Source of the DNA: Nitrospirota bacterium | GTDB lineage: Bacteria > Nitrospinota > Nitrospinia > SZUA-224 | Assembly: GCA_003229375.1 (NCBI GenBank) | Contig: QIDP01000059.1 | Span: 1-43,242 of the forward strand | Direction of reading: 5' to 3' | DNA: 43,242 nt | Shown: in pieces, positions 10,209 to 32,354 of the stretch | How positions within the stretch are numbered: the first letter of the stretch is position 1 | Layout: the number at the start of each line of letters is the position of its first letter | The notes under the pieces: generated by a model | Told to the model about the DNA's origin: nothing | Seen by the model: the letters and a program-made list of their open reading frames with translations, nothing else | Database searches by the model: none | Position numbers and translations under genes: made by a program

Positions 10209-10296
10209 AATTAAGAAGTTTTGTAACCATTCACAGTTATCAGTTTACAGTTTTTTCAATTTACTTTTAAAATGTATGTTTTGATATTTGATATTT

Positions 10297-12849: not shown

Positions 12850-13042
12850 AGCAATTTTCGATTGTTGATTTAGGATTGGTTCTTCCTCTTACCCCCCCAC
12901 CCTAACCCTCCCCCACAAGGGGGGAGGGGACTGACTTTCATGGAAAAAGGAGACTTTCTCATCTCTTGATGGGAGGGGAGATAACATCCCATCATCTTCT
13001 TTCCCCCTCCCCTGGTAAAAACACCTCATCTTCTCCTCTCTC
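12850..13042. other. Intergenic, C/G-skewed REP-like sequence
   Basis: No gene. It contains CACCCTAACCCTCCCCCACAAG at 12898-12919 followed by GGGGGGAGGGG, and further 'TCTTGATGGGAGGGGA' palindromic pieces. A close match to the first string (CCCTCTAACCCTCCCGCACAAG) lies at 13684-13705, on the other side of the DUF559 gene in the same orientation. Confidence 0.6.
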
Positions 13043-13273
13043 TTGATGGAAACACTATTTCTTCTCTTTACTCCCTTGATGGAAACACTATTTCTTCTCT
13101 TTACTCCCTTGATGGAAACACTCTCTCTTCTCTTTACTCCCTTGATGGAAACACTCTCTCTTCTCTTTACTCCCTTGATGGAAACACTCTCTCTTCTCTT
13201 TACTCCCTTGATGGGAATACTCTCTCTTCTCTTTACTCCCTTGATGGGAATACTCTCTTTTCTCTTTACTCCC
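13043..13273 (+). repeat. Seven tandem 33-bp repeats
   Basis: Seven consecutive units beginning TTGATGG.AA.ACT and ending CTTTACTCCC, each exactly 33 bp, with three sequence sub-types in order 2+3+2 (ATTTCTTCT, CTCTCTTCT, GGGAATACT). A diverged eighth unit follows at 13274. The repeat length is a multiple of three, so both strands stay open; on the minus strand each unit encodes an 11-residue HQGSKEKRE-- repeat at the end of the DUF559 protein. There are no spacers, so this is not a CRISPR array. Confidence 0.92.
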
Positions 13274-13672
13274 TTGATGGGACTTCTTTCCTCTTCTTCT
13301 CCCCTCCCTTGATGGGAGGGGATTAAGGGGAGGGTGATTTAAACAATTTACCCCTATCACCTCTAATACACCATTTATATTTTTCAAGACATCATTATTC
13401 CAAAACCTCAAAACAATAAAACCTTGTCCTTTAAGCCACCTATCTCTTTCATTGTCTCTCTCTTTTTCTATTGTATGTTGTCCACCGTCTACCTCTATCA
13501 CTACACGTTTTTCAAAACAAACAAAATCCACTATATAATTACCAATTGGCTGTTGTCTCCTAAATTTAAGCCCTTCTAATTGCTTTACTCGTAAATGTCT
13601 CCATAATAAATTCTCCGCATCAGTAGACCTCTTTCTAAGATTTTTAGCAATATTGACGAGCTTACCACTCAC
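13088..13672 (-). CDS. DUF559 (Vsr-like endonuclease fold) protein with repeat-encoded tail
   Basis: 194 residues. Residues 1-113 are a standard DUF559 domain: 'RKRSTDAENLLWRHLR', 'GLKFRRQQPIGNYIVDFVCFEKRVVIEVDGGQH' and 'DRWLKGQGFIVLRFWNNDV', with the D...E.D nuclease-type residues of the Vsr/PD-(D/E)XK fold. The next part, 'HPPLNPLPSREGRRRG', is a translated REP-like palindrome, and the rest is six 11-residue repeats from the 33-bp array. Its GTG start overlaps the stop of the upstream GT9 gene (GTGA). The function of DUF559 proteins is unproven; the tail is probably a by-product of repeat DNA. Confidence 0.8.
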   Translation of the reverse strand: MSGKLVNIAKNLRKRSTDAENLLWRHLRVKQLEGLKFRRQQPIGNYIVDFVCFEKRVVIEVDGGQHTIEKERDNERDRWLKGQGFIVLRFWNNDVLKNINGVLEVIGVNCLNHPPLNPLPSREGRRRGKKSHQGSKEKREYSHQGSKEKREYSHQGSKEKRECFHQGSKEKRECFHQGSKEKRECFHQGSKEKK

Positions 13673-29583: not shown

Positions 29584-30648
29584 TCAACTCAACTCAAAAT
29601 ACTCAAATGTCTCCCTTAACCCTGCCAATAAGTTATACCTTGGTTCAAATCCTAATATCTTCCTTGCCTTGGAGATGTCTGAAAAGTTCCTTTTAACATC
29701 ACCGGGTCGAGGGCTTTCATATACGATATTTACTCTTTTACCTGTTTCTCTTTCAACCAGTTCTTTTACAACTTCTGCTATCTCATTGATAGAGGTTTCT
29801 CTATGTGTTGCAATCTGGAAGACTTCTCCACCTGTGTCAACCTTAATAGCAAGTACGATAGCATTTATGAGATCGCTGATGTAAAGAAAGTCACGGGTCT
29901 GTCTGCCATCTCCATATATCTGAAGGGTCTCTTCAGCGAGGGCCTGTTTAAGAAATTTTGCCACCACACTGTTTTTATGTTTTGACCTTAGCCCATAGAC
30001 ATTACCAAACCTGAGAGATACGGTTTTCAGGCCAAAGGTCCTGTAATACGCTGAACAGTAAGCTTCTCCTGCCAGTTTGCTGGCACCGTAAGGTGAAACC
30101 GGTCTTGGAACCTTCCCCTCATGTATAGGAGGCTCAACCTCACCTAAAGGTGCACCTGAGGAGGCAAAAATGAATTTTTGGACATTGTTTTGCCTTGAAG
30201 CCTCAAGCATGTTGAAGGTCCCGATGACATTTACCTCCATATCAAGTCTTGGGGTCTCTACTGATGGAGCAACTCCTGTGTTTGCTGCAAGGTGAACTAC
30301 AACTTTTACCCCTCTTGTTGCTTTCTCCGCAAATCCAGCATTGCGGATATCTTCAATTAGAAGCTCAACAGATGGGTGACTATTACTCTTAAAAATATAG
30401 TTAATCCTTTTGTCACAACATCTCTTTCTAAAATCGCCAAACTCAGATAAAACCAATTCTAACTCTTCTTTTGTCCCTACACTTAAGTCATCCATTATGC
30501 GAATTGTTTTGACCAATCTATTTCTAATTAAAGTTTCGACAAGGTTAACACCTATAAAACCACAACCTCCGGTTATCAATACGTGCTGAGGTGCTGGGGT
30601 GCTGAGGTGCAGGGGTGCAGGGGTGCAGGGGTGCTGAGGTGCAGTCAT
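29584..30648 (-). CDS. NAD-dependent sugar epimerase/dehydratase (extended SDR) with repeat-encoded N-terminus
   Basis: 354 residues. The Rossmann motif GGCGFIG begins near residue 27, 'HLAANTG' and the catalytic YGASK (Tyr-X3-Lys) follow, and the C-terminal 'RPGDVKRNFSDISKARKILGF' is typical of UDP-sugar 4-epimerases/dehydratases. Residues 2-22 (TAPQHPCTPAPLHLSTPAPQ) are a translation of the GTGCWGRG octamer array and not part of the SDR fold. The ATG at 30648 overlaps the stop of the four-helix-bundle gene (ATGA) and has GGGAG upstream, so this is the working start even though the native start seems lost. Product sugar unknown. Confidence 0.82.
   Translation of the reverse strand: MTAPQHPCTPAPLHLSTPAPQHVLITGGCGFIGVNLVETLIRNRLVKTIRIMDDLSVGTKEELELVLSEFGDFRKRCCDKRINYIFKSNSHPSVELLIEDIRNAGFAEKATRGVKVVVHLAANTGVAPSVETPRLDMEVNVIGTFNMLEASRQNNVQKFIFASSGAPLGEVEPPIHEGKVPRPVSPYGASKLAGEAYCSAYYRTFGLKTVSLRFGNVYGLRSKHKNSVVAKFLKQALAEETLQIYGDGRQTRDFLYISDLINAIVLAIKVDTGGEVFQIATHRETSINEIAEVVKELVERETGKRVNIVYESPRPGDVKRNFSDISKARKILGFEPRYNLLAGLRETFEYFELS
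30583..30644 (+). repeat. Octanucleotide array, downstream side of the four-helix-bundle gene
   Basis: Seven full 8-bp units of GTGCWGRG (GTGCTGAG, GTGCTGGG, GTGCAGGG variants) and a partial eighth. It encodes the N-terminal extension of the downstream epimerase and stops 1 bp before the ATGA junction. Its consensus on the plus strand matches the minus-strand consensus of the array at 31029-31100, so the two arrays are inverted. Confidence 0.9.
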
Positions 30649-31028
30649 TGGCGACTCCCTGGCATAAGCCATGGATCCGGATGGATGATCATGTTGACCA
30701 ACTTGCCGATGATGTGGTCATAAGTCTTGTACAATTCCTGGCCCGACTTCTTTGACAAATAGCTGCATTCAACCGAAAAGCGTATCCAAACTTGTGTCTC
30801 GGCCGCCTCGGCCTCAGCATCGTTCAATTTACTCACAAAAGCTGCCTTGTAGCGCCGTTTGCGCCATGCTTCGGAAATGTTTGAACAGACCGACCTCGAC
30901 GAGCGCCGCATCTGATCGGTGAGTGAGAAAGTCTCCTCCCGAGGAAATCCCCTCGAAATTTTAAAGATCCGCATCGCTGCTTTGAAGGCCAGTTGGTACA
31001 CATCCAGCTCTTCGTGACTTTGTATCAC
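30645..31028 (-). CDS. Four-helix-bundle protein (23S rRNA IVP / bAvd family)
   Basis: 127 residues, mostly amphipathic helix: 'HEELDVYQLAFKAAMRIFKISRGFPREETFSLTDQMRRSSRSVCSNISEAWRKRRY' is the family core, then two more helices. This family includes proteins encoded in 23S rRNA intervening sequences and the Avd accessory protein of diversity-generating retroelements; it is a pentameric barrel that may bind nucleic acid. No reverse transcriptase or variable-repeat pair is present. The GTG start (31028-31026) overlaps the upstream stop (GTGA) and the stop overlaps the next ATG (ATGA). Both flanks are octamer arrays. Cellular role unknown. Confidence 0.85.
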   Translation of the reverse strand: MIQSHEELDVYQLAFKAAMRIFKISRGFPREETFSLTDQMRRSSRSVCSNISEAWRKRRYKAAFVSKLNDAEAEAAETQVWIRFSVECSYLSKKSGQELYKTYDHIIGKLVNMIIHPDPWLMPGSRQ

Positions 31029-32278
31029 CCCTGCTCCTCCGCTCCCTTACTCCCCTGCTCCTCCGCTCCCTTACTCCCCTGCTCCTCTGCTCCTCTGCTC
31101 AGAAATCGCACCTTCTTCCTCGTTCCATCCCAGCGGATATCAGGATTTAATGCCTCTTTTCTAACTTCAATCCTGGAGCGGTATTTCATCAGATCATTCA
31201 GCATAATCCGCAATTCCTGTTCCATATCATGGGTAGGTTTGTAACCAAGGTCAGGGAGGTGTTGATGATCGGGGTTATAGTAATGTTCCTCCATCTCTTT
31301 TCTGGGGTTTTCCAGGTTCCGTATGTTAACCTTCAAACCCAGTTCTTCACCGACTTTCTTAACCTTTTGGGCCAACTCTGTAATACTGTAAATCTCCTCA
31401 AATTGGTTGAAGACCCTGTATTCCCCTGGCTTCGGGGGATTTGTGATGGTTAAAGTCAAACATTGCACAGAGTCCCGCAGCGGCAAAAATCCCCTCTTCT
31501 GCCCCCCTCTTCCAAAAGGGGTAAGAGGATGTCCAATAACGGCCTGAGCACAGTAACGGTTTACAGCGGTTCCAAAGCACTGATCGAAATCAAATCTGGT
31601 GACAAGCCGTTCATCATCCTTCATCTCATCTATCCTGGTCCCGAAAACAACACCCTGCATTATATCTGTAGAACGTAAACCCCAAATCTTACATGCAAAC
31701 ATAATATTATGGGAATCATGTACCTTGGTCTGATGATACCAACTACCAGCCTGTCTGGGAAAAGGCAGGGTATCTTTCCTTTCCCGGTATTCTATCGTAA
31801 AAAACCCTTCAGGGATATCAATATTAGGGGTCCCATATTCTCCCATTGTTCCAAGTTTGACCAGATGGGCATCAGGACATGCCTCTTTCATAGCATAGAG
31901 TATGTGTAAAGTCCCGATGAGATTGTTCATCTGTGTAAACACTGCATGATTAACATCCACCATGCTATAGGGAGCGGATGGCATCTCACCAAGATGAACA
32001 ATGGCCTCAGGATCGAAGGATCGAAAACAGTTCAAAACAAAGTTATAATCCCTCAAGTCTCCTTTCCTGAATTGTAAATTCGTGCCAAAATGATCCCTGA
32101 AAGTCTCAAGTCTCTCGGTCATCCTTCTTATCGGTGTGACTGACTGAGACCCCATCTCAGCCACCCATTCCCTCCTAAGGAAGAGGTCACACCCGCTAAT
32201 CTCATGGCCCCTGGCAGCTAAATAAAGGGCTAATGACCAGCCCAGGTACCCATCAACACCGGCAATAAATACTCTCAT
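31025..32278 (-). CDS. sqdB: UDP-sulfoquinovose synthase-like SDR (SQD1/SqdB)
   Basis: 417 residues. Matches the SQD1 plan throughout: 'MRVFIAGVDGYLGWSLALYL', 'KLGTMGEYGTPNIDIPEG' with Thr144, 'YHQTKVHDSHN' with Tyr181/Lys185, equivalent to the catalytic T145/Y182/K186 known for Arabidopsis SQD1, and 'VFNQFEE', 'NPRKEMEEHYYNPDHQHL'. The enzyme makes UDP-sulfoquinovose from UDP-glucose and sulfite. The C-terminal ~22 residues are octamer-array translation. AGGAGG 8 nt before ATG 32278 fixes the start over the upstream frame extension to 32308. In this cluster it could supply a sulfonated sugar for the polysaccharide rather than a membrane lipid; no SqdX is seen. Confidence 0.85.
   Translation of the reverse strand: MRVFIAGVDGYLGWSLALYLAARGHEISGCDLFLRREWVAEMGSQSVTPIRRMTERLETFRDHFGTNLQFRKGDLRDYNFVLNCFRSFDPEAIVHLGEMPSAPYSMVDVNHAVFTQMNNLIGTLHILYAMKEACPDAHLVKLGTMGEYGTPNIDIPEGFFTIEYRERKDTLPFPRQAGSWYHQTKVHDSHNIMFACKIWGLRSTDIMQGVVFGTRIDEMKDDERLVTRFDFDQCFGTAVNRYCAQAVIGHPLTPFGRGGQKRGFLPLRDSVQCLTLTITNPPKPGEYRVFNQFEEIYSITELAQKVKKVGEELGLKVNIRNLENPRKEMEEHYYNPDHQHLPDLGYKPTHDMEQELRIMLNDLMKYRSRIEVRKEALNPDIRWDGTRKKVRFLSRGAEEQGSKGAEEQGSKGAEEQG
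31029..31100 (-). repeat. Octanucleotide array, upstream side of the four-helix-bundle gene
   Basis: Nine 8-bp units read on the minus strand: GAGCAGAG x2, GAGCAGGG, GAGTAAGG, GAGCGGAG, GAGCAGGG, GAGTAAGG, GAGCGGAG, GAGCAGGG, ending directly in GTGA. It encodes the repetitive tail GAEEQGSK... of the UDP-sulfoquinovose synthase-like protein. Confidence 0.92.
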
Positions 32279-32354
32279 GGTAACTACCTCCTGAGTTTTA
32301 ATACTCAACTATTTATCTATATGCATATCTTTCCTCTTTTCAAGTATTGACTCC

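Follow-up and report, generated by a model that had tools for sequence, protein, structure and literature searches.

A probable mobile DNA element at an operon junction: an IVP gene between inverted arrays of a variable short repeat

How a gene of the 23S rRNA IVP family, bordered on each side by an array of short tandem repeats, came to lie between two genes of an operon, and what it does there, are the questions raised by the window, by which we mean the whole 43,242-nucleotide stretch of Nitrospirota bacterium DNA under analysis (Table 1). On the available sequence evidence we consider it probable, if some way from assured, that the gene and its two arrays are a full-length copy of a mobile DNA element which inserts between operon genes without damaging them, the role of the IVP protein itself being an inference.

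Table 1. Features of the IVP locus, in coordinates of the window.
Feature	Coordinates	Strand	Description	Basis
Upstream neighbour	31025..32308	-	sqdB-like (UDP-sulfoquinovose synthase)	NCBIfam NF041015, 572.6 bits
Upstream arm	31028..31100	-	9 GAGCAGRG-type octamers, gene-sense reading	Tandem Repeats Finder, inverted match
GTGA overlap	31025..31028	-	sqdB-like stop and IVP GTG start	sequence, frames
IVP gene, sole gene of the putative element	30645..31028	-	GTG start, 127 codons	Pfam, NCBIfam, AlphaFold2/Foldseek
ATGA overlap	30645..30648	-	IVP TGA stop and possible ATG start of epimerase frame	sequence, frames
Downstream arm	30583..30644	-	7.5 units, GTGCWGRG on plus strand, inverted relative to upstream arm	Tandem Repeats Finder
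Downstream neighbour	29584..30672 (longest start)	-	NAD-dependent epimerase/dehydratase	Pfam PF16363, E 1.6e-51

Tandem Repeats Finder reports the downstream array as an 8-bp unit reading GTGCTGAG/GTGCAGGG on the plus strand, and the upstream array as 9.1 repeats of an 8-bp unit or 2.8 of a 24-bp one, in which GAGCAGRG is joined on the minus strand by the variants GAGTAAGG and GAGCGGAG. Aligned locally, the two arms score 25 in inverted and 5 in direct orientation. An initial annotation of this DNA, which had described octamer arrays inverted about the gene with consensuses agreeing at nearly every position, was fair on both counts, the only consistent difference falling at unit position 2 (GAG versus GTG); the GTGA and ATGA junctions that it described also read as claimed. 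The sqdB-like frame, whose profile score lies just under the cut-off of 575, crosses the upstream array before ending at GTGA, while the epimerase frame has an ATG at 30648, the junction start, and then crosses the downstream arm. The sqdB profile covers its protein only up to residue 393 of 427 and alignment with the sole close relative from the phylum extends to residue 394, from which we conclude that the final ~33 residues are encoded by the repeats of the upstream arm. Such reading of neighbouring frames through the arrays, as the initial annotation had it, holds for this locus and a few others; as a general feature it is ruled out, since gaps separate most elements from the genes on either side, which stop before or start after the arms. 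The co-location of arrays and IVP frames is not attributable to chance, arrays within 150 bp of such frames being enriched between 7-fold (weak arrays) and 93-fold (strong arrays) in 1.12 Mb of the same genome. Elsewhere in the window, positions 13019-13317 hold a tandem array of a 33-bp unit in about 8 copies with 94% matches (AAACACTCTCTCTTCTCTTTACTCCCTTGATGG).

The window protein is a full member of the 23S_rRNA_IVP/TIGR02436 family (Pfam E 8e-31; NCBIfam E 2e-28), passing the cut-offs of both PF05635 (106.8 bits against 33.8) and TIGR02436 (98.8 bits against 24). AlphaFold2 models it as a four-helix bundle with a pLDDT of 96.2, and Foldseek matches this model to 2gsc and 2rld (E about 1e-4, TM 0.8) and then to Avd, 4dwl (TM-score about 0.7). 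The corresponding match to Avd in sequence is weak (NCBIfam DivGenRetAVD, E 3.8e-7, 30 bits, under the cut-off of 80). No transposase family or catalytic motif was matched by the only gene of the unit in searches of Pfam and NCBIfam profiles or with Foldseek. The ratio dN/dS is 0.07-0.08 for IVP copies at different loci and 0.04-0.09 for orthologous Nostoc copies, values which indicate that the protein is maintained under strong purifying selection. Whether the element is non-autonomous, as had been suggested, we leave undecided: the unit contains no transposase-like gene, yet its one protein is strongly conserved by selection.

The architecture of the window locus recurs widely. Its own genome (G000) contains ten matches to TIGR02436, of which five are full-length or almost full-length, and the other full copies have repeats on both sides, inverted, with a unit that differs from copy to copy. 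A phylum-wide set comprised 58 unique full-length IVP genes. For each of these, the sequence upstream of the gene was scored against the downstream flank in reverse complement, with swapped pairs as the control; the inverted score averaged 25.9 against 12.7, and 48 of the 58 loci exceeded the 95th and 26 the 99th percentile. A subfamily set of 82 loci in 13 phyla was obtained by scanning named genomes with the window protein (56-76% identity), its nearest relatives being found in Scalindua, Bipolaricaulota and Thermoflexus, and others on Nostoc-type plasmids. Here the mean was 31.8 against 13.3 at control positions, with 46 of the 82 above the 99th percentile of the control. Flanks were periodic in 59-63% of cases and in 7% of controls, and the periods were equal in 52 of the 58 cases with both arms periodic. 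Each arm repeats in tandem a unit of 7-10 bp which varies between elements and matches within one, and a fixed octamer can be dismissed as their signature; the octamer of the initial annotation is one case among elements that each have their own unit, and only the period and the relatedness of the units track the protein. Two further loci deserve mention in their own right: L032 (1441-2283, G007 contig 203), where two different IVP genes stand in tandem with arrays around them, and L008 (1430-2100, G000 contig 25), where an extended IVP/Avd-like open frame of 193 aa directly precedes a frame that is Cas4-like by eye only.

It could be objected that no mobile unit exists, and that replication slippage has raised arrays around a gene which happens to sit at operon junctions, their inverted match being due to chance or low complexity. 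Low-complexity alignments of arms do occur in the phylum set, and short arrays are common in the genome, mostly away from IVP genes. Both the swapped-pair and the position controls contradict this account, as do the deleted derivatives, target duplications and empty sites described below, and we find it scarcely tenable. The initial annotation had itself named arrays away from IVP genes as a potential refutation of a mobile unit. That objection holds in part, most arrays of the genome lying elsewhere, but a good many of them are hairpins without a gene, derived either from IVP elements or from elements with a second carrier protein, GxxExxY.

Comparison across loci, genomes and phyla establishes inverted arms as the rule, with unit and period inherited together with the protein. 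Pairs of proteins more than 85% identical at different loci have a common unit, examples being a copy between hisB and hisH and one before csrA, a copy before proS and one at another site, and copies at two sites within one genome (gene names assigned by eye). Units of the GAGCAGRG type number 2.7 per locus where the protein is at least 66% identical to that of the window and 0.3 otherwise (p=5e-5), while changes of period on the protein tree number 6, against 14.2 after shuffling.

The sites occupied are of a particular kind. Of 51 cases in the phylum set, 44 have both flanking genes co-oriented with the element and one has both opposed; the bias is weaker in the subfamily set (37 versus 11). 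The gaps to the flanking genes in the phylum set are short, with medians of 74 and 43 nt, arms included, and the intergenic space is therefore filled by the arms. Two sites in the Nostocaceae can be compared between species. The first is occupied in three, whose arrays differ; in a fourth the element is missing, although the junction contains other short sequence. The second carries an element in one species and is short in a different one. The clearest empty site is the junction of hisB and hisH, where only 0-2 nt separate stop from start in seven relatives. Six genomes have this junction filled by different elements with both genes intact: G011 has an IVP element, and inverted arrays without a gene, of four different kinds, are present in G019/G017, G001, G004 and the window's own G000. 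An empty counterpart of the window's own site was not found, near relatives being without sqdB.

Gene-less copies of this sort are abundant. Array pairs at most 400 bp apart in the 1.12 Mb of G000 comprise 49 inverted and only 4 direct, a further point against slippage, and two IVP elements of this genome have many hairpin derivatives without the gene. About 23 G000 hairpins use the unit of one of its IVP elements (L004). Several of their loops consist of its end sequences, two of them containing its ORF start; one, L239, retains the start and the end of the ORF with the middle gone; and 14 of the 23 loops match the interior of the element beyond shuffled sequences. The GTTAAC-type family, which an exact pattern failed to match and a profile search of the examined portion of G000 recovered, is represented by about 24 copies or fragments, in some of which remnants of IVP persist. 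In 6 of 13 cases its ends, GTAACCG...CGGWTAC, are bordered by perfect 8-bp direct repeats, the mark of DNA insertion at a staggered cut, and duplications of at least 6 bp accompany 8 of 13, against a null of 1.3% from swapped flanks. Such duplications cannot serve as a universal mark, being clear in this one hairpin family and rare in full-length elements (3 of 48 and 3 of 63). They were seen in none of 20 AAAGTGCC hairpins and in 2 of 10 CACAGAG hairpins; age, fuzzy ends or another mode of insertion may account for their absence. Hairpin derivatives of the window's own element were not found in the 1.12 Mb (44%) of its genome examined.

Three observations may be added on the hairpins of this genome and their surroundings. 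The window contains, at 10223-10269, a fragment of a GTTAAC-type hairpin, relatives of which in the same genome bear 8-bp target duplications. GTTAAC-type hairpins are also found nested within a CACAGAG hairpin and within a AAAGTGCC hairpin (L235, 16342-16517; L099, 77-248). Finally, the idea of a transposase hidden between distant arms was rejected, the frames at L246, L221 and L256 in G000 being ordinary genes.

Empty and filled sites, deleted derivatives, purifying selection and, in one hairpin family, 8-bp duplications are all established, as far as comparison of sequences alone can establish them. With the same arms recurring at different loci, they sustain the central proposal of the initial annotation, that a gene with inverted arrays forms a mobile unit which enters operons and leaves them intact.

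Does the presence of such hairpins depend on the protein? We found no inverted array pairs in 400 kb drawn from two complete genomes that belong to the same class and lack both IVP and GxxExxY genes, where about 16 would be expected at the G000 rate. Among carriers, inverted pairs occur at 39 per Mb on G000 contigs without IVP genes, 51 in G003 and 300 in G015, with direct pairs at 0-2. The control consists of two genomes only, and there is a counter-case, G017 (73% complete), which has a hairpin and no IVP match. The density in G015 is itself striking, contigs 1-10 (L336-L345) carrying array hairpins of many different units at about 300 per Mb.

Genes for GxxExxY proteins (TIGR04256) in relatives are likewise flanked by inverted arms, with a period of about 9 and CACAGAGG-like units. 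Their arms score a mean of 25.1 against 13.5 when swapped; the position control is heavy-tailed here, and it is the sequences rather than the percentile that carry the point. The loci concerned (L260-L289) show inverted arrays mostly of period about 9 (CGCAAAGGA, CACAGATGA, CACGAAGAC), an equal architecture around an unrelated protein. This suggests that the CACAGAG hairpins derive from GxxExxY as a second carrier, even though G000, where CACAGAG hairpins occur, yielded no GxxExxY gene.

The mechanism we propose is conditional throughout. Inverted arrays of a 7-10 bp unit would serve as variable terminal inverted repeats, and insertion would be into intergenic space, typically at a co-directional operon junction and in the sense of both genes, with the neighbours left intact. 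Internal deletion would give rise to hairpin copies that keep the arms and lose the gene, presumably spreading in trans. IVP, probably as a multimer, is envisaged as recognising the tandem units and as necessary for movement, by inference only; cutting and joining might be performed by IVP through an unknown chemistry or by a partner enzyme, again by inference. That IVP drives or mobilises the element has not been demonstrated, and is inferred from its co-inheritance with the arms, the selection acting on it, and the dependence of hairpins on its presence.

The role of IVP is also where a competing account finds most room. A resident IS or other host transposase could move the units in trans by way of their inverted arms, leaving IVP as a passenger or regulator. 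IVP has no recognisable catalytic domain, inverted ends with 8-bp duplications are typical of ordinary transposases, and the gene-less hairpins do spread without a gene of their own. However, such a transposase would not explain why unit and period track the IVP protein tree across phyla, and the purifying selection on IVP, the absence of hairpins from the sampled genomes without the carrier proteins and the ordinary nature of the genes examined between distant G000 array pairs all weigh against it. We judge it unlikely, though it cannot be set aside.

Less likely again, to our minds, is an element acting at the level of RNA, in which the arms would pair in the transcript, RNase III would cut the stem, the IVP part would be freed from the operon mRNA and spread would proceed via RNA. 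The precedent is the Coxiella 23S rRNA intervening sequence, in which tandem heptamers and a terminal stem accompany a gene of the same protein family and which is excised by RNase III (PMC4990558). The elements moreover lie in sense orientation within operons, and the window transcript folds with its arms paired (z -3.0), which leaves room for a function of the stem in RNA. Selection for an RNA stem was nevertheless not supported by a test of G.U asymmetry between arms, which gave 271 wobble-compatible against 267 mirror-type differences and no trend per element, and the 8-bp duplications point to insertion of DNA in at least one family. RNA processing may occur as a side effect.

Movement as DNA remains the reading we prefer, and several known systems can be set beside it. 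Intervening sequences in 23S rRNA with an S23p/IVP ORF occur in Coxiella burnetii and also in Leptospira, Xanthomonas and Brucella; in Coxiella, GACAGAT heptamers stand in tandem just upstream of the ORF in strain-variable number (PMC4990558). They have been known for more than 25 years, yet their origin and function are unclear and transposition has been merely suggested (PMC4990558). They share with the window element the protein family, complementary ends, sense orientation in the host transcript and similar size (PMC4990558). By location the window element is no intervening sequence, since it lies between protein genes of an operon and not in a helix of 23S rRNA; there is no Rfam match in the window. 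A placement in rRNA was likewise ruled out for 20 odd loci, none of which lay there. To the extent that the literature on intervening sequences was available to us, we found no description in it of gene-less hairpin derivatives, target duplications or dispersed copies. The intervening sequences of 23S rRNA look like a special case of the mobile family, being, by inference, copies that landed in rRNA.

With DNA transposable elements in general the window element shares inverted ends and copies at different sites, but it has no transposase gene of its own. Its relatives resemble the MITEs of ordinary IS in having internally deleted copies with inverted-repeat ends and, in one hairpin family, target duplications; they differ in that no recognisable transposase is encoded by the full-length partner, and in that their termini are built of tandem repeats with a freely varying unit. 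A fold in common (4dwl) and a weak match in sequence connect the protein with Avd of diversity-generating retroelements, but the unit has neither reverse transcriptase nor template and variable repeats, and the Avd match is below cut-off. There is no second gene in the unit, and both neighbours encode sugar-nucleotide enzymes. RAYT is a recognisable IS200/IS605-type transposase. In the REPIN/REP-RAYT system (PMC3116915) a gene-bearing element is likewise accompanied by many gene-less palindromic derivatives in extragenic space. The window element differs in that its gene encodes the IVP four-helix bundle and no Y1-type (HUH) transposase, its ends are element-specific tandem arrays, and 8-bp duplications occur in one family. 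Lastly, the TAACTGA repeats of marine Beggiatoaceae (PMC4679880) and the heptanucleotide repeats of cyanobacteria are similar in that they too are short heptamers in tandem, placed between genes and close to start codons. They are described in that source as direct repeats with possible regulatory roles, and the portion of that source available to us makes no link to IVP (PMC4679880). Within open-licence literature we found no mention of TIGR02436, nothing relevant that ties IVP or GxxExxY proteins to repeats, and no publication describing the dispersed element, its array arms or its derivatives.

A broader generalisation is possible, and we hold it with slightly less than even confidence: that there is a separate class of mobile DNA in which a small helix-bundle protein without the look of an enzyme and, in parallel, the nuclease-like GxxExxY recognise and move segments ended by inverted arrays of a near-arbitrary short unit, that unit and protein co-evolve, and that in bacteria at large this class explains the intervening sequences of rRNA, hairpins at operon junctions and many short tandem repeats that so far lack an explanation. 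Our reading of the window locus would place the 23S rRNA intervening sequences in a broad mobile family with testable ends and derivatives and, in one hairpin family, testable duplications. It would give a role to protein families known at present simply as "four helix bundle protein" and "GxxExxY protein", and offers a possible source for many short tandem arrays, for repeat peptides at protein ends and for intergenic hairpins. Harmless entry into operon junctions without a recognised transposase would, if true, be mechanistically new.
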